A stretch of DNA of 64,000 bases, taken from the NCBI GenBank assembly GCA_028583605.1, contig CM053334.1:20908118-20972117 (forward strand), read 5' to 3'. The first letter of the stretch is position 1. Every line of letters starts with the position of its first letter. Shown here in pieces: positions 9,701-62,209 of this stretch. Under the pieces are notes generated by a model, which saw nothing but the letters and a program-made list of their open reading frames with translations, searched no databases and was not told the origin of the DNA. The position numbers and the translations under genes were made by a program. Source of the stretch: Dastarcus helophoroides (lineage: Eukaryota; Arthropoda; Insecta; Coleoptera; Bothrideridae).

Positions 9701-12700
9701 ACGAACTTCCCATTCTGCTGAGGATACGCCAAGATAGGGCTTATACACAAGGGCGGACTTCAGTTTTGGGAAAGCGGTATCACAATCCGGAGTCCAGACA
9801 TATGGCGTTCTTCCTTCCGTTAGTCGGTGTAATGGCGCAGCGATGTTGGCGAAACCTTTCACAAATCCCCTGTAATAGGTGCATAACCCAAGGAACTTCC
9901 TCAGTTCATGTTTATCTTTGGGTTGTGGCCAGTCACGGATTGCTCGAGTCTCGCGTGCCACAATAACCTTGACGCCTGTGTTCACTGTTGCCTGCACATT
10001 CCTTCCATCCACGCTGGCTTCCACCATCAAACTCTCCTTGGTCCTTTTTATCTGTTTGATTGGAAGAGTTTTGACGACTGGTTTCTTGAGGTTAGCCTCT
10101 TCTCGATGTGTTGTTTTCTTACTGTCATGCTTATCGATTTCTTGGGGATTGACCTGCAGTCCTTCTTGAGGTGCCCCGGTTTGCCACAGCTGTAACATGT
10201 CATGCTTCTGCTGGATCGACCTTTAAGAGCTTCCAGCAGTTCTTGGATGCTCGCGTTTCATTCCCTTCCTTTCTTTCATGTTAGCGCTTATGTTCCTGTT
10301 GATTTCCTTCCTGTTAGCGCTTATGTTTACGAGATCAGGATCATTCACAGTCTCTTTGATGTCGGTCTTCCTTATTCTGCATGACGCTTCTGGCTCCGAA
10401 ACCTTGTAAGCGGCTTCCACCTCCAAAGCTCTAATCAATGCCTCCCTTGATGTTCGGAAGTTTGACAAGCGCATCACTCCCTGGACTTCTGAGTCTCGTA
10501 TTCCTTCTATGAAAATTCTATCTGTGTAAAGTTCCAAAAATTCACTTGGTGCTGTTGAATAAGCGGCGTGAACTAGTCTTTTTACATCAGCCTCGTTCTT
10601 GGATGCCCGCATCAATTTTCTTCAAATTAGTGCTCATGCTCCCGTCCATTTTCTTCGTGTTCCCGATCATTTCCTTTATGTTGGCGTTTATGTTCGCGAG
10701 ATCAGGGTCATTCGTAGCCTCTTCGATGTCGGATTTCCTTATTCTGCGTGACGCCTCTGGCTCTGAAACCTTGTAAGCAGCTTCGACCTCCAAAGCTTTA
10801 ATCAGTGCCTCCCTTGACGTTCGGACGTTTGACAAGCGTATCACCCTCTGGACATCTGGGTCTCTTATTTCTTCTATAAAGATTCTAACTGCCTGAAGTT
10901 CCAGGAAAGTCGGTTGGTGCTGTTGGATAGGCAATATACGCCAGTCTTCTCACGTCAGCCTCGAATTCTTGCAGCGTTTCATCACTTTTCTGCTTCCTTA
11001 CTAGTAGTTGCGACTGGGCTACTTGCGGCAAATGATGATCTCCAAATCTCAGCTCTAAAGCTCTAACTAAATCCTCATAGTTAGCTAGTTCGTGGTTAGA
11101 TAGAGCTCGGAGTAGTTCCTAGAGCTTCTCCGCGCAGGGAAACCACCAATGAGGTCGCCTTTTCGTCTTCCGTCCATCGATTGGCTCTAGCAGCAGCTTC
11201 GAACTGTATTCTGTAGGCCTGGAACGATATTTTTCCATCATAGGTCGAAGGTTTCACCTTTTGGGAAGAAATAGCAGATACACTTTCGGATTCGTGTTGT
11301 ATGACTTGTCCACTTAGCAACTTCTTCATGTTATTTTCGATGTTGCTGATCTCCCTCCTGTGTTGCATTTTCCAAATCAAGAAGCTTGCTATTGAATTTT
11401 TCTTTTACTTCTCCAATTTCTTCCTTGACTTCGCTCATCTCTCCTTTCATTCCCGCAATTTCTCCTTTAACTTCGCCAATCCTCTTCTTGCATTTCTTCT
11501 CTCATTTTTGAAACGTTTTCTCCCATTTTTTTCAGTTATATTTGTTAATAGACTACTGCAATTCTTGTTTGTCTGCATTCCTTCTCTGTTCTTCTTGTCG
11601 TCTTCGTTCTTCTTCCTGTTCTTTTTCCTGTCGTCTTCGTTCTTCTTCCTGTTCTTTTTCTTGTCGTCTTCGTTCTTCTTTCTGTTCCTTTTCTTGTCGT
11701 CTTCGTTCTTCCTCTTGTTCTTTTTCCAGTTTTTTTTTCTTGACGTCTTCGTTCTTTCCCTTGTTGTCTTCGTTCTTTCTCCTGATCTTTTTCTTCTTTG
11801 TCTTTAAACATCGCTAACAACGCTTGCAATTGTTGTTCCATTTTGGCCGATTTTAGTCTCGTTTCCATTAAGCGTAGTAGAATGTTCAAGATTTTACTTG
11901 ACGCGCCTCGTATAAACTATTTAACAGTTTAAAACGTCCGAGATAAAAGTCAACTGCGGCACCTGGTACGAATTTTTTCGAGAAATAACGCTCAATCCAC
12001 AAATAATTCCGCTTCTGACACCAGATGTTACGGGCTTATCGGTTCGAATTGATTACACGTGATGGATTATACCCACTTTATTACTGAACTCAACTTGGAT
12101 CACCGCAATTGAACAATTAACTCACTTATTATTAACTTCTACTAACTCACTAATTACACCGACTCTGACTGACTGACTCGAGGGAAAGCTGACCGCCTTT
12201 TTATAGTTTTGGCCCCCGGCTTCTAGAACTTTTCGGCAGATAAGGCTTATCGTTTGCCGAAATTTCTGGAACGCTTATCTGCCATTTGTTTCGTTATCGC
12301 GGCCGCTTTCCCCTTATCAGATCCTTCTAGAAACTTTTTTTATTTACTAAATTATACAATTCTATTCTAAATTCTATTACATCTACTTACATTGCGTTAC
12401 AATATTTTGTAACAAAAATGAAAATTTTAAAGCTGTCGTAGTATTCAAAAGGTCGAAATTTTCAAAAAAAAAAAAGGGGAGGGAATGTTTAAAAAGGTCC
12501 AAATTTTCAAAAAAGTAAAATTTTTCAAAAAAGTTAAAATTCACCGAAAAATTAAAATTTCGAAGAGAAAATCGAGATTTCCAAAATCAATGAAAATTTT
12601 ATAAAAAGTCTTTGTTTTGTTAAAAAAAATGGAAATCGAAGTAAAATGTTGGGAAAAGGTCAAAACTTTGAAAAAAAAAAGAAATTTTGAAACCGTCGCG

Positions 12701-17880: not shown

Positions 17881-18384
17881 CTAAAACTTCCATTTGAAAT
17901 GAAAGGCGTAGTATGCGATGAAAAGGCAAAAAGCACCAGCCAACAATTCGCAACTTATCCACTGGCCCTTGTATATACCAGGATGGTTCACCTTAACCGT
18001 AAAAAACGCCGTAACGTTGCCTAAACTTTCCCCGGACCGGAGAGCTTTCCGCAATTGGGCATAACCCTCGTCATCGAAAATTTTCACGCTAATTTCCCCG
18101 GTCCTGGCGTTCTTCAACTCCTCCGTCCAACTTATTTGGTATTTATTCGGCGCGACGGTGGCCACCGGCGAGATCGTTTCATCCAGAAGGGCATAAAGGT
18201 GCGAAATCGATGCAGAAATTGGGGTACATTTCACGCTAAATTCGCAAATGTAAGCGATATGCGTTAAAATCGTGCCGTCTTGCGTGGTGTACACGTTTGT
18301 CTTAACATCAGGGTTTGTGCACTTTGTGGCTAGCGTCAGGGATAGCAAACAGGCGAAATGGGTGGAAAAATGAAATGATTTCAT
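17881..18384 (-). CDS. SSR4: Translocon-associated protein subunit delta
   Basis: TRAP-delta is a single-pass ER membrane subunit of the TRAP complex that sits beside the Sec61 translocon and assists insertion of some secretory proteins. The frame gives 167 residues if translation starts at 18384; an in-frame ATG five codons upstream (18399) would give 172. I prefer the inner one because MKSFHFSTHFACLLSLTLAT is a clean signal peptide. The lumenal part has the family cysteine pairs (KCTNPDV near the start, FSVKCTP), a YKGQWISCE segment and a C-terminal membrane helix (LLAGAFCLFIAYYAF) ending in the short basic tail KWKF. No intron interrupts it, and the length matches the family. The plus strand at about 17826-17834 gives an AATAAATAA poly(A) signal for this transcript. 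Confidence 0.95.
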   Translation of the reverse strand: MKSFHFSTHFACLLSLTLATKCTNPDVKTNVYTTQDGTILTHIAYICEFSVKCTPISASISHLYALLDETISPVATVAPNKYQISWTEELKNARTGEISVKIFDDEGYAQLRKALRSGESLGNVTAFFTVKVNHPGIYKGQWISCELLAGAFCLFIAYYAFHFKWKF

Positions 18385-18655
18385 TGCGTACTCACGCACG
18401 GTGAACGTCGATCAATTTAAAATTCGCTCGGTTAGCCCGGTATTTTTAGGAGTAAACAAACTATTGATTTTTATACCAACATGACGGATTAAAAATGCTG
18501 CGGTAGGCAAAATCGAGTATAGTTCAAAATGGCGGTAGGGGCAAAGAGTAGTTGAAAGCATAGAATTCTATAGTTTGGAATCCTATTTCAGTGAGCGTAG
18601 ATATCTCTGTATCTTTTTTAGGAAGTTGTGCTAATATGTCGTTGATTAAATATAC

Positions 18656-19686: not shown

Positions 19687-22600
19687 ATGACTAGACCAAC
19701 GTTGTTAACAGGATGTCTATTTAAGCGCAAAATACTGTACATCGTAGTAGCTCTGGTATTTATTCTATTGAGTGTTCATGTTTTTGAGGTTAGGTCCTAT
19801 TTTGTTTATTAGTCGTTTTTCTGAATTTATTACATTCTTTAGGCCATTTATCACATATTTGGTACAATCTTGTTAAAATGTGATAGCGCAGAACCTATTG
19901 ATGTAGTTTACACTTGGGTCAATGGTTCCGATCATAGGTTTTTAAACAATTTAGATTCATTTCTACGACAAAGTGGAAATGGTGATTCTTCATTTATGAG
20001 AAACCGTTTTGAGGATAAATTAGAGCTAAAATTTTCATTGAGGTAGGTATCTTTTTCTTGAACAAAGTTAAATTTCACTAAATGAGGGAAGTAGGTCGAT
20101 TTTATATATTTTAGATCTTTGGAAAAATTTGCGCCATGGATTAATCACGTATACATAGTGACAAATGGTCAGATTCCGTATTGGCTTAACTTAGACTATG
20201 AAAAAGTAACGATAGTGACCCATGAGGAAATATTTTTAGATAAATCACATTTGCCGACCTTTTCTAGTCCTGCCATAGAGTCACACATACATAGGTTTAT
20301 TCTAATTCGAAAACATTTCATTCAACGCTTATTACCCTTCACTTTGCAGGATACCGGGTCTTTCTAAAAGGTTCCTATATTTTAATGATGATATGCTTCT
20401 CGGAAAACCTGTGTATCTGGAAGATTTTTGGTCCTTTGATTCGGGTGAGTCACAAATTTTGTGCGCATATGGGGACTTTCAGTTTTTACTCTTTGCTTGA
20501 ATTTTTTTACTTTACATCGACTTTAATTTCGAAATTGTCATTTTTTGAATACATCCACTTTAATCTCAAATTTTGATTTACTTTTTTCGAAAATTTCGTT
20601 TTTTTCAACATTTTGACTTTTTTTGAAATGTTGACTTTTTCTTTAATTCTTACTTTATCTTCAAAAATTTTACTTAAAACTTCATCAAGCAAAAAAACAA
20701 AATTTCGACTTTTCAAAATTTCATTTTTTTTCTATATTTTTACTTTAAAAAAAATGATAGCATTTTTTCTAAATCTCGACATTTCTGTTTTAAAAATAAT
20801 AATTACGGAATTAATGCCAAAAATTTGATATTAAATTCGAAATGTCGTTATTAAAGTCGAAATGTTGGGAACAAACTCCGCGATTCCTAAAAAATATTTT
20901 CTAGACGACTCTTTGTGGAAATTTCCAGACTGATTTGATAAATTTTTTTCGAAATTTCGAGTTCAATGACAATTCCCCCTTTAAAAATCTTAAAGTCAAA
21001 CAATGTTAGAGTTTCTAAAAATAATGTTCTGGCAATGTGTCGTTCAAAGTCGAAATGCTAAGAATAAGGTTAAAAAAAATTGGGAATTCCAAAAAAACTC
21101 GAAGTTTCTGTTTTAAAAATAAAAATTTTGTAATGAAAGCTGTAATTTTGATATTAAGTTCAAAATGTAGACATTAAAGTCGAAATTTTGGGAACAAACT
21201 CCACGATTCCTAAAAAAAAAACTTTTTGTCGAAATTTCGAGATTTTATAAAATTTGACCATTTTTGTCATTTTGTCATTCCTAATGACAATTCCGCATTT
21301 AAAGTCTTAAAATCAAAAAATGTCAGAGTTTTTAAAAAATTGATTTTCTCGCAATGTGTCGCTTAAAGTCAAAATGTTTTAAGTTCAAAAAATTGCAAAA
21401 TCCCTAAAGCAATCTCGAAATGTAAGTTTTCAAAATGAAACGAAATTTTTCGAAATTTTGTTATAAAATTTGAAGTCGACATAAAAGTCGAATTTCGGAA
21501 AAAAATTTGAAATGTTTAAAAGAGAATTTCAAAATTTCTAAACAAAATTTCAAAATTTCTTTAAAACAAATCCAAAATTGCAAGTTTGGGCTGACCTGAA
21601 TTAACAAAAAAGAAAAAGAAAGAATTTTGGATTACATTTAATAGGTTTTATTGCTTAACAAAATTGGTTATAAAAGGTTTCTTCAGGTTATAAATTGTAC
21701 TTTGCTTGGCCCCTCCCGATGTGTTCAGATGCTTGTCCCTGGATGTACGTAGCTGACGAGCAATGTGATCAGCCTTGCAATAATGAGGCGTGCCAAATGG
21801 ACGGCGGGGATTGCCAACAAACAGAACTTGAGGTATAGTATTACCTTCTAATATCTTACTTTGGTAACAAAGTTTATCCTAAAAACGAAATTTTACCCCA
21901 ATAATGGAATTTCATTGTAATAACTGAATTTACTTTATAACAAACTTTATCTTAATAATGAGATTTATCGTTATAACCAAATTTCCCTTAATACTGTCCA
22001 TTAGATATTTGAGGGCGAGCAATGGGGAACAGATTGCGCTTCCACGTCCCCTTATGCTGAAATGTGATTATTGCTAGAAGCAAAGAACGGTCAACTTGGT
22101 CAACGGTGCACTCCTACTGCTTGCCATCAAATATCTGTTGAAGTTATTTATTCTTCAACCAGGAAGAATAACCAAATCTAATAAATGAATTTTGTAGCAA
22201 TCTACACCTCCCCAAGAAATTGTATCAATCAGCGTTCCTGCAACAAAAAACTCAACTCAAACGCTACTGGATTTAAGACCAAATTTCCAAAAAAGCGTTA
22301 ATAACTCTGGGCAAGGTCTCATTAAGAGATTAGTCCAATCGTACAACGACAAAGTCCTAATGAACGATAAAATTAGGCGAAATAGGCATAAGAGAAAGCA
22401 GCATTCGTTAAAAATTGGGAAGTTATTATACCAAAATTCTTCATATGTTAGAGTAAGAGCTAATAAAACCAAAGACGCTTATAGTGAGTCGTTGCAATAT
22501 TCAAATAGACTGTTTAATATAAGATACGGGTTTATACCTAGAATGGTGCCATCACATACCCCCCTTCTCATAGATAAAGACGTAATCCGAAGCCTGCAAT

Positions 22601-24134
22601 CCAAATTTGCCACAGAAGTCATTCAAACATCATCCCATAAGATCAGAAGAGGGGACGACTTACAAGTACACATTTACATATTATTATTATCTTCATCAAG
22701 AATCAGTACAAAGATGCTATAGAGGAGATATTTACCGAATTTGATACGGATGGATCAGGGTAAGTGTAAATTTGTAGATGAATAAGAACGAAAGCTACTA
22801 ATAAAATATTTATATTTTTTACTGAAATAATTTATTACTGCAACTTTTTCAATGCTATGTTGAATCAGATTGAAGGCGGGGATGACCATATATGCAATGC
22901 TTCTGTATGGCCAATTCCTTATTCTTTTGGTGGAACGGACTAGTCCTTGGTTATCTTAAAAATTGAAATACAAATCTTGTCCCCTGAAACCAAGAAAGAT
23001 TAAAAAACACAACAAAGATTGCTCTAACTTATCGTAAGATGAGAGCGAATGCACATCTGATTTTAAACTGAAAATCGGCCACCCCAAAAGAATCGGAAAC
23101 AATAGAGAAGTCCCCAAGTAAGAAGTGGAGCCGGCCATATAGGAGTATTAAATATGTGGGGGATGAGAAAGTTGGGTTTTCTATATAAGTTATAAGTAGA
23201 GACTTATAGCTTATATAATTCTAAAGGTAGTTCAGAGCCTTAGCAGTTTTTCTCCCAATCTATAATATTTCTAGTTCATGGTCAGATAGAGAAATACGTT
23301 TACTACTGACAAGATTATACGAACTACCCCTAACTTACTCCGCCGTTGATAAATTTGAATCGCTTTTACTAAACTGTTCAGTAGGAAGAGACGACTCGAA
23401 AATTTCGACACCAAAATATGAGCGATATGCAGACTCGAGACTGGTAAGAATTCTTTCAGATGTTTAATCGAATTATACGCTTCGGTTGATTACAGGGTAC
23501 GATTTCATTTGATTTAGTGAATAAGTGCAAAGCTTTAGTTAGGAAACTCAACGAAAGATTCGGTAGAGTTAAAAAATATAAAACTGTTGTGATCAAGAAT
23601 GCGGAATTCACAGTTGTAGCTTTCAAAATGTTGAATTCCAACGTTAGCGACGTTGTAGGCGATTTGGATGACATTCGAAGTGAACCGAGGTAAATAAAGC
23701 ATATACATATTTAAACTGAAAAGAATAATGATACCCTACGTATTGATCTGTTTTTGAACTCGTTCGAACATGTCCCCAAATTGTCACTATACATTTCTTT
23801 ATTTTTCCGCTGCCAATTCTATAAATGATACCATTTTAGGAAATTCATCTGCCTAAATGATAATACAGATCATGAAAAAGTTGTGGAAAACGAGATGATC
23901 AAATCGATAATATACGATTTTTATCTGACGCTGTTTCCACATCCTAGTAAGTACGAGTTACCTGAAGAATATATGAACAGATTCCTACACGTGGACGAAT
24001 TAAATACTTGGAAAATGCACAACTTTCGCGTGAAAATTCTCATATACTTTTGTATGTCGCTGTTATTTTATATTTTTTGTTTTAACTTTTTTAGAAGAAA
24101 ATGCTGCCAAATCATAAATAAATTATTCTGCTAG
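19687..24134 (+). CDS. GNPTAB: GlcNAc-1-phosphotransferase alpha/beta subunit
   Basis: This Golgi enzyme puts GlcNAc-1-phosphate on lysosomal hydrolases, the first step of the mannose-6-phosphate tag. Exons: 19687-19788, 19843-20042, 20115-20294, 20350-20444, 21687-21832, 22198-22759, 23275-23443, 23496-23689 and 23840-24134 (stop TAG), about 647 residues. Seen in order: an N-terminal membrane anchor ([19 protein letters not shown]); Stealth conserved regions [42 protein letters not shown] and [10 protein letters not shown], which hold the catalytic core; one LNR/Notch-type Cys module (CSDACPW...[17 protein letters not shown]); a Stealth C-terminal segment; an EF-hand loop DTDGSGSWSDRE; and a C-terminal membrane helix ([16 protein letters not shown]). 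Shorter than the vertebrate protein, lacking the long spacer. All junctions are GT-AG and in phase, but exon 6 contains a frame break at about 22670-22690. This is a two-base excess or one-base deficit in an ATT-rich run, possibly an assembly error. Confidence 0.93.
20500..21600. repeat. Short-repeat tract in GNPTAB intron 4
   Basis: Most of the 1.24-kb fourth intron is the same degenerate family, mainly in the inverted TTTCGACTTT orientation up to about 20750, then mixed (for example AAAGTCGAAATG). Frames here are not coding. Confidence 0.75.
22888..23161. mobile_element. MITE in GNPTAB intron 6
   Basis: Same family as the element at 18656-18994: the left end reads CATATATGCAATGCTTCTGT then ATGGCCAATTCC, and the right end is a diverged complement (GGCCATATAGGAGTATTAAA). 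Its left third contains GTCCTTGGTTATCTT and TTGTCCCCTGAAACCAAGAA, which recur as a perfect hairpin at 30779-30856. Confidence 0.7.
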
Positions 24135-25189: not shown

Positions 25190-28100
25190 AAACTGGAAAT
25201 TACGAAATTAAAGTGGAAATTTCTACTTTATTTTCCAAATTTCGACTTTTTTGAAAATATTTCATAAAGTTTAAATTTCGGCTCTAATCTCGAAATTTCA
25301 ACTTTTTTTTTCACGAAATTTAAAGATAAGTGGAAATTTCTTATTCTATGGTTAAGTTAGGCAGATGACAGTTAAGCCCCATCAACCCTTAGAATACAAA
25401 ACTATATTCTAAGCACCAACTCTTTTACAATTTAATGTTGACACTTAGCAGTAGGGTACGTTCAGCAAATTCAATTTTTTATTACCCAAAATTTCGACCT
25501 TTTCTTGAAATTTCAAAGTTAAAGTAGAATTTTCGAGAAAAAAGTCGAAATTTCGAGTTCAAAGTCGACATTTTACAAAAGCGTAAAAAGGACATTGATT
25601 TAAAAAAATATTTTTAGAGATTTCGACTTTTTTTTCGAAATTTTCATTTTTTTTCGAAATTTCGACTTTTTCTCTCGAAATGTCGACTTTAATCTCGAAA
25701 TTTTGGATTTAAATTTGAAATTTCTGCTTTAAACTCGAAATTTCGTCTTTACACTTAAAATTTCTACTTTTTTTTCGAAAATTGGGCTTTTTTCTTGAAA
25801 TTTTTACTTTTTCCCTAAAATTCCGAAATTAACGTCGAAATTTCGACTTTAAACTTGGATTTTCGACTTTGATATCGAATTTTTTTCGAAATTTCGAGAA
25901 TAAATTGCTCTATAATAAACACACTCTATGGTTAAATTAGGCAGATGACAGTTACATCCTACTACTCTTCTTCCCCAACAATCTTGATAGTTGGTAGTAG
26001 GGTGCGTTCAATAATTGCTATTTTTAATCAGCAAATATTGGTCTTTTTTTTAGAAATTTCGAGAAAAAAGTTGAAATTTCGAGAAAAAGGTCGAAATTTC
26101 GAGTTTTAAATCGAAATTCCGTGATTAAGATCAAAATTTCGAGAAAAAAGTCGGAATTTGAGAATAAAGTCGAAATTTCGAGAAAATGAGTCGAAATTTA
26201 AGAAAAAAGTCGAAATTCATAGAAAATAATTAAAATTTTGAGTTTAAAGTCGAAATTTCGAGAAAAATATCGAAATTTCGAGAAAAAATTCGGTATTTGA
26301 GAAAAAAGACGTAAATTGAGAGAGAAAAAAAAACGAAATTTCGAGAAAAAAGTTGAACTTTTCAGATTAAGGTAGAAATTTCGAAAAAAAAGTCGAAATT
26401 TGAAAAAAACGTCGAAATTTCGAGAAAAAGTGGAAATTTTGAAATATTTCGAGAAAAAAGTCAAAATTTGAGAAAAAAGTCGAGATTTCGAAAAAAATCG
26501 AAATTTCGAGAAAAAAAGTCGCAATTTTGACTTTAACGTCGAAATTTCCAGAAAAATGTGGAAATTTCGATATTAAGGTCAAAATTTCGAAAAAAAGATG
26601 AAATATGAAGAAAAAAAAAGATATTTCGCGGAAAAGGTCGCAATTTCGAGAACAAAGTCGAAAGTTTGAGAAAAAAAGTCTACATTTCGAGAAAAAGTCG
26701 AAATTTTGAAATATTTCGAGAAAAAGTTGAAATTTTAAAAAATTTTGAGAAAAAAGTCGAAATTTGAGAAAAAAGTCGAGATTTCGAAAATAGTCGAAAT
26801 TTCAAGAAAAAAAGTCGAAATTTCAAGAAAAAAAATGACGAAATTTCGAAAAAAGGTCGAAATTTTGACTTTAAAATCAAAATTTCCAGAAAAATGTCGA
26901 AATTTCGATATTAAAGGTCAAAAATTCGAGAAAAAGTTGAAATTTGAGGAAAAAAAAACGAAATTTCGCGAAAAAGGTCGTAATTTCAAGGAAAGAGTCG
27001 AAAGTTTGAGAAAAAAAGTCGAAATTTGAGAAAAATGTCAAAATTTCAGAAAAAAGTCGAAATTTCGAGATTAAAATTGAAATTTGAGAAAAAGAGTCGA
27101 AATTTCTAAAAAATAACATTATTTTTAATCCATGTCCTTTCTACGCCATTGTAACATTTCGAAAAAGTTGAAATTTCCAGAATATTCGAAATTTAAGAAA
27201 AAAGTCGAAATTTTGAGAAAAAAAGTCGAAATTTGAAGTTTAAAGTCGAAATTTCGACAATATTAATTAATTTCGACGATATTAAGGTCAAAGCTTCGAG
27301 AAAGAAGTCGACAGTTTGAAATATTTCGAGAAAAAAGTCGAAATTTATAGAAAATAATTAAAATTTTAAGATTAAAGTCGAAATTTCGGGAAAAGTGTCC
27401 AAATGTCGATATTCAGGTCAAAATTTCGAGAAAAAAGTCGAAATTTTTGAGAAAAAAAAAACGAAATTTCGAGAAGGTCGAAATTTCGAGGAAAAAAATT
27501 GAAATTTGAGAAAAAAAATCAAAATTTCGAGAACAAAGTTGAAATTTTGAGAAAAAAATTTCAAAAAAGTTGAAATTTTCAGAAAAAGTCGAATTTTGAG
27601 AAAAAAAAGTCGAAATGTAAGAAATAATCGAAATTTTGAGAAAAAAAAGGTCGAAATTTTGAGTTTAAAGTCGACATTTCGAGAAAAATGTCGACATTTC
27701 GAGAAAAATGTCGAAATTTCGATATTAAAGTCAAAATTTTGGGAAAAAAGTCGAAATTTGAAAAAGACGTCGTAATTTCAAGAAAAAAGTCGAGATTTCG
27801 AGAGAAAAAAATCGAAATTTGCGAGAAAAGTCGAAATTTCGAGAAAAAAAGTCGAAATTTTCAGTTTAAAGTCGAAATTTTGAGAAAAATATTGAAATGT
27901 CGATATTTAGTCAAAATTTCGACAATAAAGTTGAAATTTGCAAAAAAAATGAAATTTCGGGAAAAAGGTCGAAATTTCGAGAAAAAATCGAAATTGAGAA
28001 AAAAGTCAAAATTTCAAGAAAAAGTCGAAATTTCGAAATATTTTGAGGAAAAAAACGAAATTTGAGAAAAAAGTCGAAATTTACAGAAAAGTCGAAATTT

Positions 28101-28990
28101 CAGAAAAAAAAGTCAAAATGTTGAGAAAAAACGTCGAAATTTCTAGAAAAAAAAGTCAAAATTTCGCGAAAAAAAGTCGAAATTTTCAGAAAAAAGCCGA
28201 AATTTGCAGAAAAGTCGAAATTTCAGAAAAAAAGTCGAAATTTTGAGAAAAAAAGTCGAAATTTCGAAATATTTCGAGAAAAAATCGAAATTTGCGAGTA
28301 AAGTCGAAATTTCGGAAAAAAAAATCAAAATTTTGAATTTAAAGTCGAAATCTTGAGAAAAGTATCAAAGTGTTGATATTAAGGTCAAAATATCGAAAAA
28401 AAAAAGTAGAAGTTTGAGAAAAAAAAACGAAGTTTCGAGAAAAAGGTCGAAATTGCGAGAAAAAATCGAAATTTGAGAAAAAAGTTAAAATTTTGAGAAA
28501 AAAGTCGAAATTTTGATAAAAAAAGTCGAAATTTCGAAAAAAAAGTCAAAATTTCGAGCTGAAAATTGAAATTTGAAAAAAAAGATCGAAATTTCTAAAG
28601 ATAACATGTTTTTTAATCGATTTCCTTTCTACGCCTTTGTAACATTTTGAAAAAGTTTAAATTTTCAGAAAAAAGTCGAAATTTCCAGAAAAGAGTCGAA
28701 ATTTTGAGAAAAAAGTCGAAATTTGAGAAAAAAAGTCAAAACTTGTAATAAAAGCGGAAGTTTGAGAAAAAAGTCGAAAATTCTAAAAATAACATTTTTT
28801 TTAATCGATGTCCTTTCTACGCCTGTGTAACATTTTTAATTATTATCAATAATTTAAATTTCGATTTAAAAATTGAAATTTCTACCTTTTTCTAGAATTT
28901 TCGACTTTAAACTCCAAATGTCGACTTTTTTTTCGAAATTTTGACATTAAAGTCGAGATTTAGTGGAAGAAAGGTCAACATTCCGTGATA
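25190..28990. repeat. Largest GTCGAAATTTCGAG array, with orientation switch
   Basis: The clearest version of the repeat family: from about 26040 to 28980 units read AAAAAAGTCGAAATTTCGAG, often containing the perfect palindrome TCGAAATTTCGA. From about 25190 to 25880 the units are mostly in the opposite orientation (TTTCGACTTTTTT), so the tract flips polarity at about 25.9 kb. A spacer with CTATGGTTAA and GGCAGATGACAGTTA occurs at about 25348 and 25925. Another with CCTTTCTACGCC recurs at about 27130, 28620, 28805 and (diverged) 29005. Confidence 0.88.
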
Positions 28991-33589: not shown

Positions 33590-36110
33590 TTCAATTTACT
33601 GAACTCCTCAATAACTTCTGTGAAATCGATTTCTTTTGAAATTTTTCATTCTATTGAAAGCACGGCTAGATTAACCAGTCGCTCTTGACCCATTGTAGAT
33701 CGAAGATAATTTTTAATTAGTTTAAGTTTCGAAAAACCCCTCTCGCATGATGCAACCGAGATGCAAATGGTCAAGAATTATTGAAGTATAAGCGATATAC
33801 GGGGTAACGATTCACTGAAGTCCCATTTTATTATAAATTGAAGGATTTCTTGGGCTCTCCATTTGGCAGCAACGTCCATACTCGTATCGGTGGCTTTTAC
33901 ATGCCTGCGGTACCTTTTTATTTCTTGGGAAACTTGCTCCTTGTCAAATTCGCCATAAATTTGTATCAGATTGTCAACTGCTACAGCCAGAGTGTCATCT
34001 GAAGCTTCTAGCATAAACTTTGTTTCAATAATTTGGAAAATATTATTGATTTGTTTCATGGCTTCGCATCGTGTCGACAATTCTTGTATAAATCGGTATA
34101 TGCATACATTGACCGACGTATTTCTTCTTGAATTGATAATCCAGCATCATGAGCTGATTCACCCGGCATCGTTCTTTTTACCTTCCTTCTTCCTCGTTTC
34201 TCGATGTTGATGTCCATGTCATCGCATTTTTTTATGCCAAAAGTTACAGCATTGTCTACAATCGTGGTTAGTTCGGTCACTAAATACTCATTCAAGGCGT
34301 TTAGCTTGGTGATTCCTGTATCTCTGAGTCATTTTTGGAAACTGCAAATATTGTTGAACTAAATTTATTTCCTCCAGAAGCCAGAATTGTTTATAGGTTA
34401 GAAAGGTAAAATCACAAACAGCCGGCTCCTGATCTTGTATCTAGATTTGCTTTTGTTGGATCTTGAAAATGTTCCAAACTACTCACAATTGTTTCTATGT
34501 TTTCTTTTACAACTTTTAATGACTCGTTTTGAGCGCTCCAGCGAGTATCCGATAAACGTTTTCAATTTTTTCCAGTTTTCTCTTTCAGAAATTGCCATCT
34601 CTGTGTAGATGACGAAAAGAACGAATATAATATCTCTACTGTTCCAAAACATGTCACACTGGAAGGAACGCATGCAAATACATGAACTCCACAAAGATTC
34701 AAAGAATGATTAGAACAAGGAGTGAACAATGCCTTTGGATTTACTTCTCGGATTTTTCGTTGCACCCCTCCATGGACACCTGACATTGACGCGGCATTGT
34801 CATAACCTTGAGCTCTGCACAACACAATATCCAGTCCATCTTTTTCCAGCTGTTGCTGAATGTCTTTTGACATATCCTCAGCAGTTTTTCCAGACATTAA
34901 AAAAAAAACAAGAAAGATTCTCCTACTTCCATAATGTCATTCTCTATATGAACAAATCTAATGATTTGACTCATTTGGTCTATTTGGTCAAAAATGATTC
35001 CGGAATACTTAGCCTTTTTAATATCTGCAATAATTTTTTGCCTTACATGATCACCCAAACATTAAATTCATTTTGTATTCCTTTTGACAAATAAGATGGT
35101 ACTCTCTTTGACCCACCAGCAGCCTCTTCTAGTTTTAAGCAACGCTCTTTCAACACCGGATCATATTTTGCTAACAGTTGTACTAATTCTAGAAAATTTC
35201 CCCTGTTTGCCGAAGAAATATCTTCACGGTGACCTCGGAAGGTAAGATTTTGTTGGGCTAAGAATAGCGTTACATCTAAAAGGCGATGTAAAATATTTCT
35301 CCATTTCTTAGTTTCATCGTTAATAATCTTCAAATTATCTTTATCAATAATTTTATTAAGTTTCAAGCCCATTGTCAACGTTTTCCATTTTTCTAAGTTT
35401 GATAGATGTTCATGAGACGATTCATGCTGTGATATTCTTGGATTTAATTTCCACCACTGACAAAAACCAGAGACAAATTTATTAGTGTGATTGTCATCCT
35501 CAGATGCAAATAACCGGCAGCAAGTAACAATATAATTTCTTTGTTGATGGAGAGTATAGCATCCATTTCCTTAAATATTTAGTCTCGTTTAAATGTGGGT
35601 AAAACAACGGCAAAGTTAAACAACGATGTGTTCCCTTAGTGCTTTCACATGGTCTTTCTACAGATTTAAAAGATCCGTCCTTGTTTTGAAATATTTCATT
35701 GCCCTTTTTGATAATCGAAATTCTGATTTGCTCTGGGACAGGTATTGGCCAATGTGCAGCATTATTGGATGATAAGAACACTAACTAAGAAGCAACGTAG
35801 TCTTCGGCTTCCTCAGTATTTTTCTTTAATTTATTAGTTTTATAGTCCTGTATTTCAGTGTCAGTCACGTCGGAGTTTTTATTAATATCGCATTTAATAG
35901 ACTTTTCAGCTATGTTTGCTGTTTCAATATCAATGATTTATATATTAGATCCCGATTCAACAGTTTGATTAATTTCTTCGGCAACTCTACTTTTCTTCTC
36001 TTCAGAATTCGAAAGGTATTTGGATAAAGATCCAGCAAGCGATTTTGCCTCTTCAGTCTTCGCTTTTTTAGCTTTCTTTTCTGAGAGCCAGATGGTTGAA
36101 TCCTTTTCAC
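33590..36110 (-). pseudogene. Broken hAT transposase (TTF zinc finger / ZMYM-like)
   Basis: In minus-strand order the pieces are: a Lys/Arg-rich start (about 36110-35910); a TTF-type segment with ...NAAHWPIPVPEQIRISIIKKG (35781-35500); a core piece with NLTFRGHREDISSANRGNFLEL (35378-35043); a catalytic-region piece with CRAQGYDNAASMSGVHGGVQ and CSNHSLNLCG (34897-34562), where hAT transposases carry their second acidic residue; and C-terminal pieces (34295-33778). Frames change several times and stops intervene, so it is a pseudogene. The family resembles the ZMYM1/DUF4371 hAT transposases common in insects. Confidence 0.85.
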
Positions 36111-41328: not shown

Positions 41329-42796
41329 CTACGAATGGTCTTTTCCCAGGATTCTTTCTTCTTCGATTTCTTTTCTTCCTCTGCCAACAGATAAATAAAC
41401 AGCTACAGTCGCTAACAGTACACCAAGACCAATACACCCGTACCCAGTGTAGGTCCCAACAGAAGGCATCACAAGCACCAATTTTATTTCAGTGGCCAAA
41501 TCATCAGTCATGTAAGCTGCTTGCTTAAACCACAACATCGGCATCATCAACTGCTTAACATCTTGCAATAAATCAATCCCTGTAATATTCAATAGGTGAA
41601 GGTTCACTTGTATCATCGCTTCAACCTGAAGTGGCACCCCAGTATTTGGTTCCAAATCAATCATAAATTGATGAGTAGAAGCATCCGGTTTCATACCATC
41701 GACATCTTTCCGATAGGAGTCATCCGCCAGATAGAAATGAGGGAAAGACATAAACGCCGGCGCCCCGAATTTACACTGCGACACGTTTCGCACCCCACTG
41801 GGTAACACATCCCCGGGACTAAAGCATGCTTGTTCTTGATAGGTACTGCCATTGTCAAAAACATCAGCCTGCCCAATGTATCTATTACCTTGGATCCCAT
41901 GAGATTCTACGCTTTTGTCCAAATGCAAGGTGATGGTACTGCACGCATCGGGGGTGAACAAGGCGATAGTTTCGTTGTCTTTTGGAGGATACCACAGCTC
42001 GCCACTTGTACCTATAACGCGACCACACTCCCCTGGGTATATATTGGTGTGGTCCAAACCATTCCACAGCGAAAAAAGACCCAATTTCTCTATATCGTCC
42101 GCCCCAGTGTACATAGTCCAATTCCCATCATACTCACTAGAGCTGTTACGGGTTACGAACCAACCAAAGGTTTTAAAAGGTATCTTTAGTCCCTTGATGT
42201 GTAGTTTCTGCACCAAATCCAAAAGCGGATCATCATAGCCATCAAACATAAATTCCCTCACTGTTTTTGTAACAATAAAAGGTGTTTTTTTCTCCTTTAG
42301 GAAGAAATTAACCCCTTTTCTAACCAAGATATGTTTGTGACGAACAATGTAACCGACTGTGGCCAAAATTGGATTCAAAACAGTCACCTTATCATCAATA
42401 CTCCCTTTGGTCAATTCCTTATCCAAATGCCATATCCTCTTTGTCTGGAAGCTAACTGTATCATTATTATTAAACGTAACGTTCTCTCTAATGTGGTGCT
42501 CTCTCCAAACGTAAGGCCCCATTTCCACCAGCTTCGGTTTCACCGTCCACTTCGACGTCAAAACTTCATCAGGATTACTCCAGTTAAACAAATACACTTC
42601 CAAATACATCGGGATCGGAGTCTCCTTCCACATCGAATACAACATAGTTTTATCGTTTCGCAGGGATAATTGCTGCTTCACCACTGTGTTGAATAATCGC
42701 TCCCATAACACGGAAAGCACCGTACCGACTTACAAGGAAGAAAACCGACGTTGATATGATACTCCATTTCTGGCATTTGGGTGAACAACAGGTCAT
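41329..42796 (-). CDS. CD36-family scavenger receptor class B
   Basis: CD36/SCRB receptors are double-membrane-anchored surface or lysosomal proteins that take up lipids, lipoproteins or other ligands. The 463-residue frame carries the family hallmarks: WKETPIPMYLEVYLFNWSNP near the start, LNPILATVGYIVR, NIYPGECGRVIGTSGELW, a Cys-rich ectodomain (SQCKFGAPAFMSFPHFYLAD, then DLEPNTGVPL), several NxS/T sites and a C-terminal membrane helix (GCIGLGVLLATVAVYLSVGR). The expected N-terminus lies upstream from an ATG at 42796 (MTCCSPKCQKW, then a hydrophobic stretch ...SVFFLVSRY), but it is one base out of frame with the rest at about 42720. That is either a sequencing error, a mutation or a very short unspliced feature. 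No introns interrupt it, unusual for this family. Probably emp/croquemort-like, subfamily uncertain. Confidence 0.9.
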
Positions 42797-50425: not shown

Positions 50426-50647
50426 TTCAGAAGAGTTTCGCCTCTGGTATGATGGACATACTGAGTTACCGTGCTCTGATGTTTTGAAATTGGCCTTTTT
50501 ATTTTTGCATATTCCCTTATATTTCCCTTTTTATTTATTGTTTTTTCCCTTTGTTCCTGAAGAAGCCCCCTACGATGGTGGGCGAAACGTCGAACACTGT
50601 TAGTAGTTCTTTGACACGGTCCAATCCCGGAAGAAGAATATCCTGTA
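50426..50647 (+). mobile_element. Penelope-like/foldback repeat, copy A
   Basis: A 222-bp unit beginning TTCAGAAGAGTTTCGCC and ending CGGAAGAA(G/T)ATATCCTG. It holds CTGAAGA, a GCCC...GGGC stem and GAAACGTC at about 50557-50592, the layout seen in the hammerhead-like pseudo-LTR motif of Penelope-like elements. No reverse transcriptase is present. Closely similar to copy B at 52279-52508. Seen in intron 1 of PKNOX. Confidence 0.55.
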
Positions 50648-50879
50648 AAGTATAAAGACGATAAAACTGGGGAAAACAAAAATGATTAATTAAATTAACA
50701 CAGTAATTTCTTCATCATTGATAACATATTCACTTTTTTTTATAATCAAGTGAATTTTAGAATAAAATAGAAAAAAATTTAGGAATAAGTCGTTTTATCC
50801 TAAGAGCACGCCACTGGACGAATATGTTTAATTCATTCTATTTCGAGCGTAGGAACACAATTATTGTACTTCAGAATCT

Positions 50880-52174: not shown

Positions 52175-52508
52175 CAGGATATACTTCTTCCGGGATTGGA
52201 CTGTGTCAAAGAACTACTACTACTACTACTACTTCGACGTTTCGCCCACCATCGTAGCAACAACTCTTCAGACTTTTCTTCAGAAGAGTTTCGCCTCTGG
52301 TATGGTGGACATACTGAGTTACCGTGCTCTGATGTTTTGAAATTGGCCTTTTCATTCTTTCATTTTTGCATATTCCCTCATATTCCTCTTTTCACTTATT
52401 GTTTCTTTTCTTTGTTCCTGAAGAAGTCCCCTACGATGGTGGGCGAAACGTCGAACACTTTTAGTAGTTCTTTGACACGGTCCAATCCCGGAAGAAGTAT
52501 ATCCTGTA
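52175..52508. mobile_element. Penelope-like/foldback repeat, copy B with inverted arm
   Basis: The right part (52279-52508) matches copy A. The left part (52175-52256) is the complement of its last ~75 bp (52432-52506), with a (TAC)n expansion at about 52214-52233. The unit is therefore bounded by ~75-bp inverted arms with CAGGATATACTTCTTCCGGG at the edge. Each arm contains the GGTGGGCGAAACGTCGAA motif. Non-coding. Confidence 0.65.
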
Positions 52509-52639
52509 CTGACTCTGGCCGTGGAAAGCCTTCGTTATCACAACCCTCTGACAGTTTAACATAAACGGTCACTCTGGGAAAGCCCTAAACACTTCATTCT
52601 AATCCACTGATCAATAATAGGGGGGAATCGAGATAAAAC

Positions 52640-53436: not shown

Positions 53437-55321
53437 ATGGAGTGCGGAGTCCAGAGCGCCATGCTGAGCGTACCTCCTGGACCCGACGTGGGACCTCAGG
53501 CACTGACGACGACAGTTTTTGCCCCTCCAGACACAGATCAAGCTCAGTTCGAGGCAGATAAGCGATCGGTTTACAAGTAAACCACTCCTTAATTTATTTC
53601 AAATTTGCGTCTGATCGAATGCTCGTTTTTAGGCACCCTTTGTTCCCTCTGTTGGCCTTATTGTTTGAAAGATGCGAGCTCGCCACACAATCCTCGGATT
53701 CCCAATCGAGCGAAGCTTTCAATTTGGACATACAGGCGTTCGTTCAACATCAGGAGCGAGATAGGAAACCGTTTTTGGCCAATGAACCTGAAATAGATGG
53801 ACTGGTAATAATTACCTAATTTTAAGTTATATAAATAGGCACATAAGACTTACCTCATTATATATGAATGTGGATGATTTGAAATATATTTTTGTCCATC
53901 AGACGCATCTCTCTCAAGTTGGTACCAAACTAGTGATTTTGGGAAATTGGAGCTAGTTTGTGTTTTTGGAAATCTTACATGAGATTTGGGGGAAAAGGGG
54001 ACCGCGTCTGTAATTTAAAATTTAATTGTCTTCGTTTTGTAGATGATTAAAGCTATACAAGTTCTAAGGATACATTTATTAGAATTGGAGAAGGTACAAG
54101 AGTTGTGCAAAGATTTCTGTAATCGATACATAACATGTCTCAAGGGAAAAATGCAATCAGAAAACCTATTGAGGTCGGATTACCCTCAAGGTATTACCTT
54201 ATAAATCTGTTTTGTTACCACAATTAACTCAATTAACTTCAGGTGGGGGTATGATGACGGGTTTGGAAAACAATAACAACATGATGAACCACGCGAATTC
54301 CGAGAGTGGTTCCGCCTCTAATAGTCCAGTGCAATATACAATTAGTCCAACGCAGGTACTATGACATATCAACCAAATAACTACAAATACCAAACAAGTC
54401 ATTTTTAGAATGTGCCATCGCAAAATAACCAAACGCCAATGGAGCGACACCTCGAGAACCCTCACTACCCCGGGAACGGCCCCGTGATCCCACCGCACTA
54501 CCCAGGAGGTGGGACCGCCGGCGGCCCTTCACCTCCTCTGCAACCGCTTCAGTCTCCCTGTGCCGAAAATTTAGTAGTTCACGGGTCGACCCCGCTCTCC
54601 CAAATAGGCGTCAACATGTGTTCCGTTCCTCCAAGTGATAGTTCAGGCCCTTTGTCGCCAGCCCCCACAACTCCGGGAGGATCAGCAGATGATTGCGACA
54701 GCGACTTCACGAGTAGGGGAGGTCGGAAACAGAAGAGAGGCGTCTTGCCTAAACAAGCTACTAGCGTGATGAGATCGTGGCTGTTCCAACATTTGGTGGT
54801 GAGAAAATATTAGCCTTTGATTGTTCCCCTAGTAAAACGACGTTTTAGCATCCGTACCCGACGGAGGATGAAAAAAGACACATCGCTGCCCAAACCAATT
54901 TGACGCTGCTCCAAGTGAACAATTGGTTCATTAACGCTCGGCGGAGGATCTTGCAACCGATGTTGGACGCCAGCGCCCCAAGTGATAACGGTAGTGCAAC
55001 GAATTCACCTAATCATAAGAAGAAAAAGACCCAAAATAACAATAGGAGGTTTTGGCCGCAGGATTTCGCCAATATGCATCCTCAAATCGAAAGTGGTATT
55101 TGTTCTTCAAAATTTTACTAATTTGGTTTTTAACTTGTGTATGTTGCGTAGGTATGTTATCGAGTTCGGAGGACGAAGCTGATGGGGATTTGTACAGTAG
55201 CGACGGTGAAGAGGGAAGTTTAGTGATTGACGCCACAGTTTCCAACCCAGAAGTTAACCAAAACGGTCATCAGGTCGATCCCATGTCGTACGCCAATGGG
55301 TCAGACACTGAAAGACAGTGA
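53437..55321 (+). CDS. PKNOX: PKNOX/Prep TALE homeodomain transcription factor
   Basis: PKNOX (Prep) is a nuclear DNA-binding cofactor that pairs with PBC/Exd proteins. Coding exons: 53437-53576, 53633-53804, 54043-54190, 54243-54355, 54409-54798, 54849-55095 and 55152-55321 (stop TGA). They join in frame into 459 residues. An in-frame TGA just upstream supports the start. Residues 48-62 [15 protein letters not shown] and 105-141 ([20 protein letters not shown]) are the two MEIS/PKNOX N-terminal blocks that bind Exd/PBX. 155-321 is a Pro/Ser/Asn-rich linker. About 300-362 is the TALE homeodomain, with the PYP loop at 323-325 and [10 protein letters not shown] from 347. The intron between 321 and 322 splits the homeodomain in phase 0. 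The C-terminus is acidic ([10 protein letters not shown]). The MEIS blocks resemble vertebrate PKNOX1/2 more than Meis/Hth. A second TALE gene lies 5 kb downstream. Confidence 0.95.
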
Positions 55322-60501: not shown

Positions 60502-62209
60502 ATGGCTATAAAAGTTTGCCGCCTTTGTTTACAAACAATCCAGGGCAAATATTTTGACGTAAACACAGTCGAACCAAGCACTGGGTTTATGCCTTACAGA
60601 GATCAAATTACTACATGTATACCAGAAATGGCAAGTTTTTCGATGGTGTAAAGGGTTTGGTTGTTATTGTGTGTCCTGTTTTAGGCTGTAGATCTTATAC
60701 CTGATTCTCTTATTTGTGCATCTTGTGTGGTATCGTTGAAAGCAGCTTATGATTTTAAAACAAAATGCCTTCAGGTGGAAGAACGAATTCGGTCGCATTT
60801 CGAAAACAAACCACTTGATTCAGAGTATGATTTGTCAGAGTTGGTTATTGATCCTATAATAGTTAAACAGGAGAAAACGGAAGAGGTCGATCTTGGTATA
60901 TTCGAGGGCGAGGAGCCTGAATTGTGTATTGTGAAAAAAGAAAGTGAAGCGCTTGAATGCGATCCTCTTAGCACCGATACTTTGCTTAAGAGGGTTTTGG
61001 AGAGGCCGATACTGTGTTTACATGACAAGGCACATTTGACAAATAGTTCAAATGGACAAAATCATGGTAGCTCAGAATATATTTGTAATTTTTGTAATCA
61101 AACATTTTTAAGTTTGCAAGTTTTAAGAAGACACAATTCCTCATGTAATAAAGCTAGAGGTAAGGCTTCTGCACTAATGTTCCTCATATTTAGCTTTAAT
61201 CCTGACCAAGGGCAAAAAAATACAAGTTTTTGGACAGGGAGCAACATATTTGAGCAAAATCTCAAGAGTCTGAGTATATTGGGAACAGTACCAATACTAG
61301 CGGTTTTTTGAACACTTTATAGTTGTCAGAATTTTTAATTTTTTGTAAAGTTGTAAACATGAGAATTTAACATTTTTTTGATTATTTTAAAGTTTTTTTT
61401 TTTTAAATTAATAACAGTTTCGAATTTAATATCAAAATTTCCAGGTATTTTTATTTTGTTATTTTTAAAAAAAAACCCTCGTTTTTCCGGGTTTATTTTA
61501 ATTTTTCTTTTTTTCTTAAAGAATCGATTTGGACTTTCAAAAAATTTCGATCTTAGTTTTAAAATTTCTTGACTCTTTTGTACAAATTGCGAGTTTTTTG
61601 ATTCGTTTGAGATCGAAATTTCCAATAAAAAATGGAAACTGTTTCAAAGTCCAAAATTCAAATGGAAACTCAAAATTTCTAAAAAAAAAGTCCAATCGCT
61701 TAAAAGAAATCGAATTTTCGAGTTTAAAATCGAACTGTCGAGTTAAAAATCCAACTGTCGAGTGCAAAATCGAACTTTCGAGTTCAAAATCGAAATTTCT
61801 AGTTTTAAATTGAGATTTCAACAGCGAAGCGTATATGAACACTTTGATTATAGGTAAACCTTCGCAACAAATCTTAACAAGAAGGCCTCATCTACCATTA
61901 AAAGCGAAAAACCACTTGACACAGTGGTTGTTCAACCATAGCGATGTAAGTCATTGTGACTGCATTCATTTTTCCAAGCTAGAAAAGAATGTTAACTTTC
62001 AGCACCCCTACCCGACAGAGTATGAGAAACAAACACTTATGAAGGAAACCAATCTTACGCTGCTACAAGTGGAAAATTGGTTTATAAATGCGAGAAGAAG
62101 AATTTTGCAGGATTTTAACAACAGAAGGAAGAAATATTCAAGGACAAAAGTAGCCACGAAATCTGAACCTCAAGTTGTCGATTCCGTCAGCCTCACTTAC
62201 ACAGGATAA
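60502..62209 (+). CDS. ZAD + C2HC finger + TALE homeodomain protein
   Basis: Four exons, 60502-60630, 60685-61159, 61854-61945 and 62003-62209 (stop TAA), join in frame into 300 residues. Residues 3-85 form a ZAD dimerisation domain (KVCRLCLQTI with C6/C9; LICASC with C54/C57, then VSLKAAYDFKTKC). 96-129 is acidic with two sumoylation-type motifs (VKQE 103-106, VKKE 126-129). One C2HC finger uses C177, C180, H193 and C197. About 211-269 is a TALE homeodomain with HPYP at 233-236 and [12 protein letters not shown] (256-267). Closest in sequence to PKNOX ([28 protein letters not shown]). An intron splits the homeodomain between D232 and H233 in phase 0, exactly as in PKNOX upstream. Intron 1 (54 bp) uses a GC donor (ATG|GCAAGT); a GT alternative would leave only 36 bp. 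No MEIS blocks remain. Likely a nuclear DNA-binding factor; targets unknown. The exon 2/3 join is inferred from phase and splice sites. Confidence 0.82.
61340..61825. repeat. Short-repeat tract in ZAD-TALE intron 2
   Basis: The 694-bp intron between finger and homeodomain exons (61160-61853) is mostly T-rich then GTCGAAATTT-family units (repeated TCGAGTT(C/T)AAAATCGAA at 61715-61800). Confidence 0.7.

Follow-up and report, generated by a model that had tools for sequence, protein, structure and literature searches.

A probable beetle transcription factor that joins a ZAD to a PKNOX-like TALE homeodomain

Results

The locus and its surroundings

The window, a 64-kb stretch of Dastarcus helophoroides DNA, harbors on its forward strand an intact PKNOX gene (53437-55321; seven coding exons, 459 residues plus stop) and, 5.2 kb downstream of it, a second homeobox gene at positions 60502-62209, hereafter the fusion gene. 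The four exons of the fusion gene join in frame into 300 codons followed by TAA, in line with the preliminary description of this DNA. Exon 1 (60502-60630) carries the start codon and the first half of a ZAD with one CxxC pair, and exon 2 (60685-61159) contains the second half of the ZAD with another CxxC pair, an acidic linker and a C2HC finger, ending in phase 1 at G/GTAAGG. Exon 3 (61854-61945) encodes the arm and helix 1 of the homeodomain up to WLFNHSD, and exon 4 (62003-62209) runs from HPYPTE through the remainder of the TALE homeodomain and a basic tail to the stop codon.

The donor of exon 1 is of the GC type (GAAATG/GCAAGT). A GT donor lies 15 nucleotides further downstream (after 60645) in the same frame and would extend the protein to 305 residues, with a Pfam zf-AD score of 34.7 bits versus 33.2 bits for the GC donor. 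We favor the GC-AG intron, because 27 of 28 aligned orthologues add no residues at the exon 1/2 boundary. The single exception, Euwallacea P0026, carries five additional residues there, and therefore both donors may be used. The GC/GT donor pair at 60631-60645 may represent an ancient alternative splice. The remaining two introns have GT...AG ends. The reading frame of exon 2 stays open beyond its donor, to 61311, and an in-frame ATG within intron 2 opens a frame (61835-61945, forward strand) that could start a hypothetical homeodomain-only product. The end of intron 2 (61707-61819) is occupied by a 20-base tandem repeat (AAATCGAAATTTCGAGTTCA), whose unit is like that of the 2.5-kb array at 26053-28595; other short repeats of this kind are dispersed through the window.

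The neighboring PKNOX protein matches Meis_PKNOX_N (PF16493) with 151.3 bits and Homeobox_KN with 69.8 bits in Pfam. Its identity to the PKNOX of a number of beetles, among them ladybirds, Anoplophora and Tribolium, is 77-78%; two other records reach 81-82%. Upstream of the gene lie two copies of a dispersed repeat (50440-50650 and 52260-52510) with the common text GGCGAAACGTCGAACAC. Elsewhere in the window we find retroelement-like frames on the reverse strand (8881-10949), one with a reverse transcriptase RNase H at 9179-9688, a reverse-strand TRAP-delta reading frame (17884-18411; E 8.8e-56), and forward-strand domain matches to Stealth CR2 and CR3 pieces (20095-22719), presumably as in GNPTAB-type phosphotransferases. 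Further reverse-strand frames span 33781-35784, one of them with a domain match to DUF4371 (35046-35570), which we take to be transposase-derived, and an uninterrupted CD36-family frame of 466 codons lies at 41332-42729 (reverse strand; CD36 E 2.9e-147).

Domains of the fusion protein

Pfam profiles place a zf-AD domain (PF07776; cut-off 28 bits) at residues 5-80 (60514-60795, split by the intron 60631-60684) and a Homeobox_KN domain at residues 226-265 (70.3 bits, cut-off 24, E 1e-19); the Homeodomain profile scores 24.1 bits against a cut-off of 22.9. Between them, at residues 177-197 (61084-61146), lies the finger CNFC-x12-H-x3-C, whose spacing, C-x2-C-x12-H-x3-C, is that of a C2HC finger; the C2H2-type finger profile reaches 17.6 bits at residues 175-196, below its cut-off of 25. 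Counting Dastarcus together with the 30 orthologous records described below, this finger pattern is present in 30 of 31 rows and absent from P0022, and the pattern of the ZAD cysteine pairs (C6/C9 and C54/C57) is likewise present in 30 of 31, missing only in P0027. The N-terminus of P0027 carries a THAP domain, probably as the result of a mis-join. In the orthologue alignment C9, C54 and C57 are invariant, C6 is nearly so, and the homeodomain helix NWFINARRR is invariant; the three-residue loop extension of the TALE class is present. With both zf-AD and Homeobox_KN above their cut-offs, ZAD, C2HC finger and TALE homeodomain indeed reside in one protein, as first described.

The same description had noted missing MEIS blocks, and this holds beyond Dastarcus: the MEIS/PKNOX N-terminal domain (PF16493) finds no Pfam match in the Dastarcus fusion protein, in any of the 29 alignment members (E <= 0.001), or in P0159 and P0160. 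A C-terminal cluster of C2H2 fingers is also absent from the Dastarcus protein, the C-terminus being formed by the homeodomain. For the orthologue from Cryptolaemus, AlphaFold2 yields a weak model, with a mean pLDDT of 65.5 and with ZAD residues 17-19 and 24-51 under 50. Its best Foldseek match is PKNOX1 (1x2n, E 5.7e-5), and no ZAD structure appears among the best 50 of 478 matches. The predicted structure hence supports the homeodomain, not the ZAD.

Orthologues in other beetles

A protein database search, the route by which the preliminary description had suggested looking for the same architecture, returns 39 proteins, 28 of which are complete or almost complete orthologues (E 3.2e-74 to 8.2e-57). 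Of these, 24 rows cover 85-98% of the query at 39-49% identity, and another four cover 32-35% of it at 63-73%. A profile search adds two more, from Cylas (P0159) and Aromia (P0160), bringing the total to 30 orthologues, which come from 26 named species of beetle and three further assemblies (P0011, P0013 and P0016). Leaf and seed beetles, longhorns, weevils and bark beetles, ladybirds and nitidulids all carry the fusion, families that to our understanding all belong to Cucujiformia. A fusion private to the Dastarcus genome is ruled out by the orthologues in 26 named species, and an artificial mis-join by the 28 orthologues with E <= 8.2e-57. In the homeodomain tree the Dastarcus fusion is nearest to the ladybirds among named species (fork 97/94).

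In the databases these proteins are labeled uncharacterized, hypothetical or unnamed, or carry a bare domain name. The Sitophilus oryzae orthologue (P0021) is misnamed 'BEL1-like homeodomain protein 1', which we take to be a plant-type name. When Dastarcus and the 28 orthologues are rescanned against Pfam at E <= 0.001, zf-AD is found in 28 of 29 and Homeobox_KN in all 29. The zf-AD match is weak in many of them: in four of the rescanned orthologues it reaches 20.7-27.1 bits, short of the required 28, and the precomputed Pfam annotation gives zf-AD for 16 of 30 rows. Most of the records are gene predictions, and some are faulty (P0022, P0025, P0027, P0028 and P0160). A predicted isoform X2 of Aethina tumida (P0028) lacks the central part of its homeodomain, HPYPT to LLQ; judged by its sequence, such an isoform should be severely impaired in binding DNA and could serve as a natural antagonist.

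At the sensitivity of the protein and profile searches, which restrict candidates by length, no fusion is listed for Tribolium, the scarabs Onthophagus and Trypoxylus, Agrilus, the fireflies Photinus, Pyrocoelia and Lamprigera, or Nicrophorus, all of which have a listed PKNOX. Harmonia, Diabrotica virgifera, Dendroctonus and Ceutorhynchus also have no fusion among the listed proteins, although relatives carry one; clustering at 90% or annotation gaps may account for these four.

Evidence for a single gene

Two contigs of 1677 and 1641 bp contain uninterrupted fusion reading frames of 1434 and 1428 bp, filling 86-87% of the contig. They look cDNA-like, as would be expected from an intron-containing gene. 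On other contigs, nine short reading frames (P0032 and P0161-P0168) end 6 to 33 residues past the last cysteine of the finger, with stop positions determined by eye. These ends fall near the point where Dastarcus intron 2 starts, consistent with an intron there. Several named orthologue records are numbered isoforms, which in such annotation usually implies transcript support.

The open frame of exon 2 beyond its donor and the in-frame ATG at 61835 could also be read as a ZAD/finger gene ending by read-through into intron 2 and a separate homeodomain gene, wrongly joined by eye. We consider this highly improbable, as 28 of 28 orthologue records combine ZAD and homeodomain sequence in one protein, and the two cDNA-like contigs hold the whole reading frame. 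Pieces are faulty or missing in three of the 28, namely the finger in P0022, the first cysteine pair in P0027 and the middle of the homeodomain in P0028.

Conservation and finger number

The mean identity between Dastarcus and its orthologues is 64% for the ZAD, 16% for the linker, 54% for the finger, 81% for the homeodomain and 10% for the tail, as calculated from 24 of the 28 orthologues, with P0022, P0025, P0027 and P0028 dropped as gene-prediction errors or partial isoforms. On these alignments, the pattern is one of strongly constrained domains joined by a free linker. One homeodomain residue sets the fusion proteins apart. At the site that we number as homeodomain position 46, all 29 motif-bearing fusion proteins have Glu, and all 134 other motif-bearing proteins that we fetched have Asn; the residue is Cys in human TGIF1 and Ser in PBX1.

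In 23 of the 31 rows the C2HC finger is preceded by one or more additional C2H2 fingers, so that the single finger of Dastarcus is probably a secondary state. The eight rows with no extra finger are Dastarcus, two Diorhabda, Diabrotica, Psylliodes, Phyllotreta, Callosobruchus maculatus, where one cysteine is changed, and Rhamnusium, where the finger region looks mispredicted.

Synteny with PKNOX and a shared intron

Both homeobox genes of the window are interrupted by a phase-0 intron at the same codon, WLFQHLV/HPYPTE in PKNOX and WLFNHSD/HPYPTE in the fusion, as the preliminary description had pointed out. Retention of this intron in both genes speaks for duplication at the DNA level rather than retroposition. 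Two proteins, the Exocentrus fusion P0025 and the TALE protein P0039, carry extra residues at this codon that resemble intron read-through.

Among the matches listed, fusion and PKNOX are both found in 19 named species; the PKNOX listing comprises the best 120 of 3042 matches, in which seven fusion species have no PKNOX. Callosobruchus analis, with no contig given, falls outside the comparison of the other 18, and in 17 of these, again among the matches listed, the two genes lie on contigs of equal size. The label compared is the size of the longest contig bearing each protein, a criterion that is weak for chromosome-scale contigs; of the 17 shared contigs, eight stay below 3 Mb, down to 232,782 bases, and nine exceed it. 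The exception is Rhynchophorus, with two different sizes, where two assemblies seem to be mixed. Locus tags, as taken from database records, follow directly on each other for the two genes in Gonioctena (012168/012169) and in Hypothenemus (006256/006257). They differ by 6 in both Henosepilachna and Rhamnusium, by 16-25 in Aromia, Molorchus and Exocentrus, and by 211 in Cryptolaemus. The occurrence of orthologues in many other beetles, mostly near PKNOX, makes the fusion look like a genuine, old regulator.

Source of the homeodomain and of the ZAD

The homeodomain of the Dastarcus fusion is identical to that of its own PKNOX at 35 of 58 positions and to human PKNOX1 at 36 of 58, compared with 31 for MEIS, 29 for TGIF1 and 20 for PBX1. 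Across 19 fusion homeodomains 40 columns are invariant; PKNOX agrees with 29 of these, and MEIS and TGIF1 with 26 each. The solved structure that best matches the Dastarcus protein by sequence is PKNOX1. In the homeodomain phylogeny that had been proposed earlier, the fusion homeodomains fall on one side of a long branch (support 98/100 and 99/100, with the bootstrap not settled), and PKNOX is not singled out as their source. In AU tests on 64-column homeodomain trees, neither a sister relation to MEIS (p 0.33) nor one to TGIF (p 0.19) is rejected, and a constraint joining fusion and PKNOX, 3.6 log units worse (p 0.134), is likewise unrejected.

These tests leave room for a homeodomain taken from another TALE gene, hth/MEIS or TGIF, with the position beside PKNOX acquired secondarily. 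Such a source appears improbable to us given the higher identity to PKNOX, the recovery of PKNOX1 as best structure both by sequence (Dastarcus) and by fold (orthologue), the contigs common to fusion and PKNOX, and the same homeobox intron. As the 64-column trees leave the source undecided, the PKNOX origin rests on adjacency, intron and identity taken together. The earlier proposal of a tandem PKNOX copy captured by a ZAD gene is, on the basis of synteny in 17 of 18 species and the common intron, well supported as to the tandem copy, with the qualification that the homeodomain alone is not proof of PKNOX as its source.

For the ZAD, the nearest non-fusion relatives among the fetched proteins are beetle double-ZAD proteins, P0194 (Anoplophora LOC108906118) and P0175 (Euwallacea), with 29-34% identity. 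By this similarity they are candidate relatives of the ZAD donor.

Discussion

Proposed history and mode of action

We conclude that the fusion is, with good probability, a genuine and conserved beetle transcription-factor gene of the order ZAD, variable linker, C2H2 finger where present, C2HC finger and TALE homeodomain, whose product would be PKNOX-derived, ZAD-dimerising and independent of Exd. Its history most probably started in an early cucujiform beetle with a tandem duplication of PKNOX. The copy would have retained the homeobox exons with their intron, lost the MEIS exons, and then been spliced to an adjoining ZAD/finger gene. PMC9933525 assigns a single MEIS and a single PKNOX gene to most insects, counts one PKNOX in Tribolium, and reports that the gene has been lost in Drosophila.

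PKNOX, MEIS and TGIF read TGACA-type sites, and the MEIS domain binds PBX/Exd. The fusion homeodomain would be expected to read a TGACA-type core, since the recognition helix shared by these proteins (WFINARRR) is kept. Lacking the MEIS domain, the protein would not recruit Exd by that route, and the ZAD might supply homodimerisation in its place. Such dimers could bind paired sites, bridge distant sites, or compete with PKNOX and Hth at common sites. The ZADs of Pita, ZIPIC and Zw5 homodimerise and are thought to set specific long-range contacts, and the ZAD homodimers reported in the accessible text are those of fly proteins only (PMC5509000). From its sequence, the simplest mechanism for the fusion would be a ZAD-linked, Exd-independent dimer of PKNOX-like homeodomains.

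A loss of the MEIS domain combined with a retained recognition helix would also fit a dominant-negative or decoy, which sits on PKNOX/Hth sites without Exd and represses, the ZAD serving recruitment to chromatin rather than dimerisation. The predicted isoform P0028, devoid of part of the homeodomain, points in the same direction. Glu46 and the altered arm may however change the binding specificity, and we hold this role to be possible but rather unlikely. We also advance a broader proposal, with somewhat less assurance than the gene itself: a beetle-lineage family of factors in which a duplicated Hox-cofactor homeodomain has likely been released from its tie to Exd/PBX and come to be governed by a ZAD, as a homodimeric TALE factor.

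Hox cofactors of the PKNOX/MEIS type are seen as tied to PBX/Exd via their MEIS domain. In the fusion, a homeodomain probably copied from such a cofactor has parted from the MEIS domain, gained a dimerisation module of insects, and been retained in chrysomelid, cerambycid, weevil, ladybird and nitidulid beetles. If this is true, a homodimeric TALE factor has been kept over much of the very large beetle radiation, offering a testable case of domain shuffling from which a putative developmental regulator has newly arisen. Some fusion-bearing species, such as Leptinotarsa, are amenable to RNAi, which makes knock-down, ChIP and SELEX feasible.

Comparison with known systems

The preliminary description knew of no ZAD-homeodomain protein, and we too found no description of one among the open-access papers listed by our literature searches. 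The fusion is not described in the accessible parts of PMC5509000, PMC4327956 and PMC9933525. As far as could be found, the fusion would be the first ZAD protein to read DNA through a homeodomain.

The fusion resembles the PKNOX/PREP (MEINOX) proteins in the HPYPT loop and the WFINARRR helix of its TALE homeodomain, in the homeobox intron and in the neighboring locus. It differs from them in lacking the MEIS/PKNOX N-terminal domain, in possessing a ZAD and a finger, in having Glu for Asn at position 46, and in a homeodomain identical at only 35 of 58 positions to that of the PKNOX next to it. TGIF is also a TALE homeodomain protein without a MEIS domain, but the fusion shares only 29 of 58 homeodomain positions with it, has HPYPT where TGIF has an NAYPS loop, and carries a ZAD. 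With the double-ZAD proteins P0194 and P0175 the fusion has the PEM/NPVIC motifs partly in common, whereas these proteins contain two ZADs and no homeodomain, and P0175 a C2H2 array. The N-terminal ZAD with two cysteine pairs, followed by a linker and one or more fingers, is what the fusion shares with the insect ZAD-C2H2 proteins, such as Grauzone, Pita, ZIPIC and Zw5, which are named in PMC5509000. In contrast to those proteins, the fusion has no C-terminal C2H2 array; it has one C2HC finger, accompanied by one or more C2H2 fingers in 23 of 31 rows, and the homeodomain is its likely reader of DNA.
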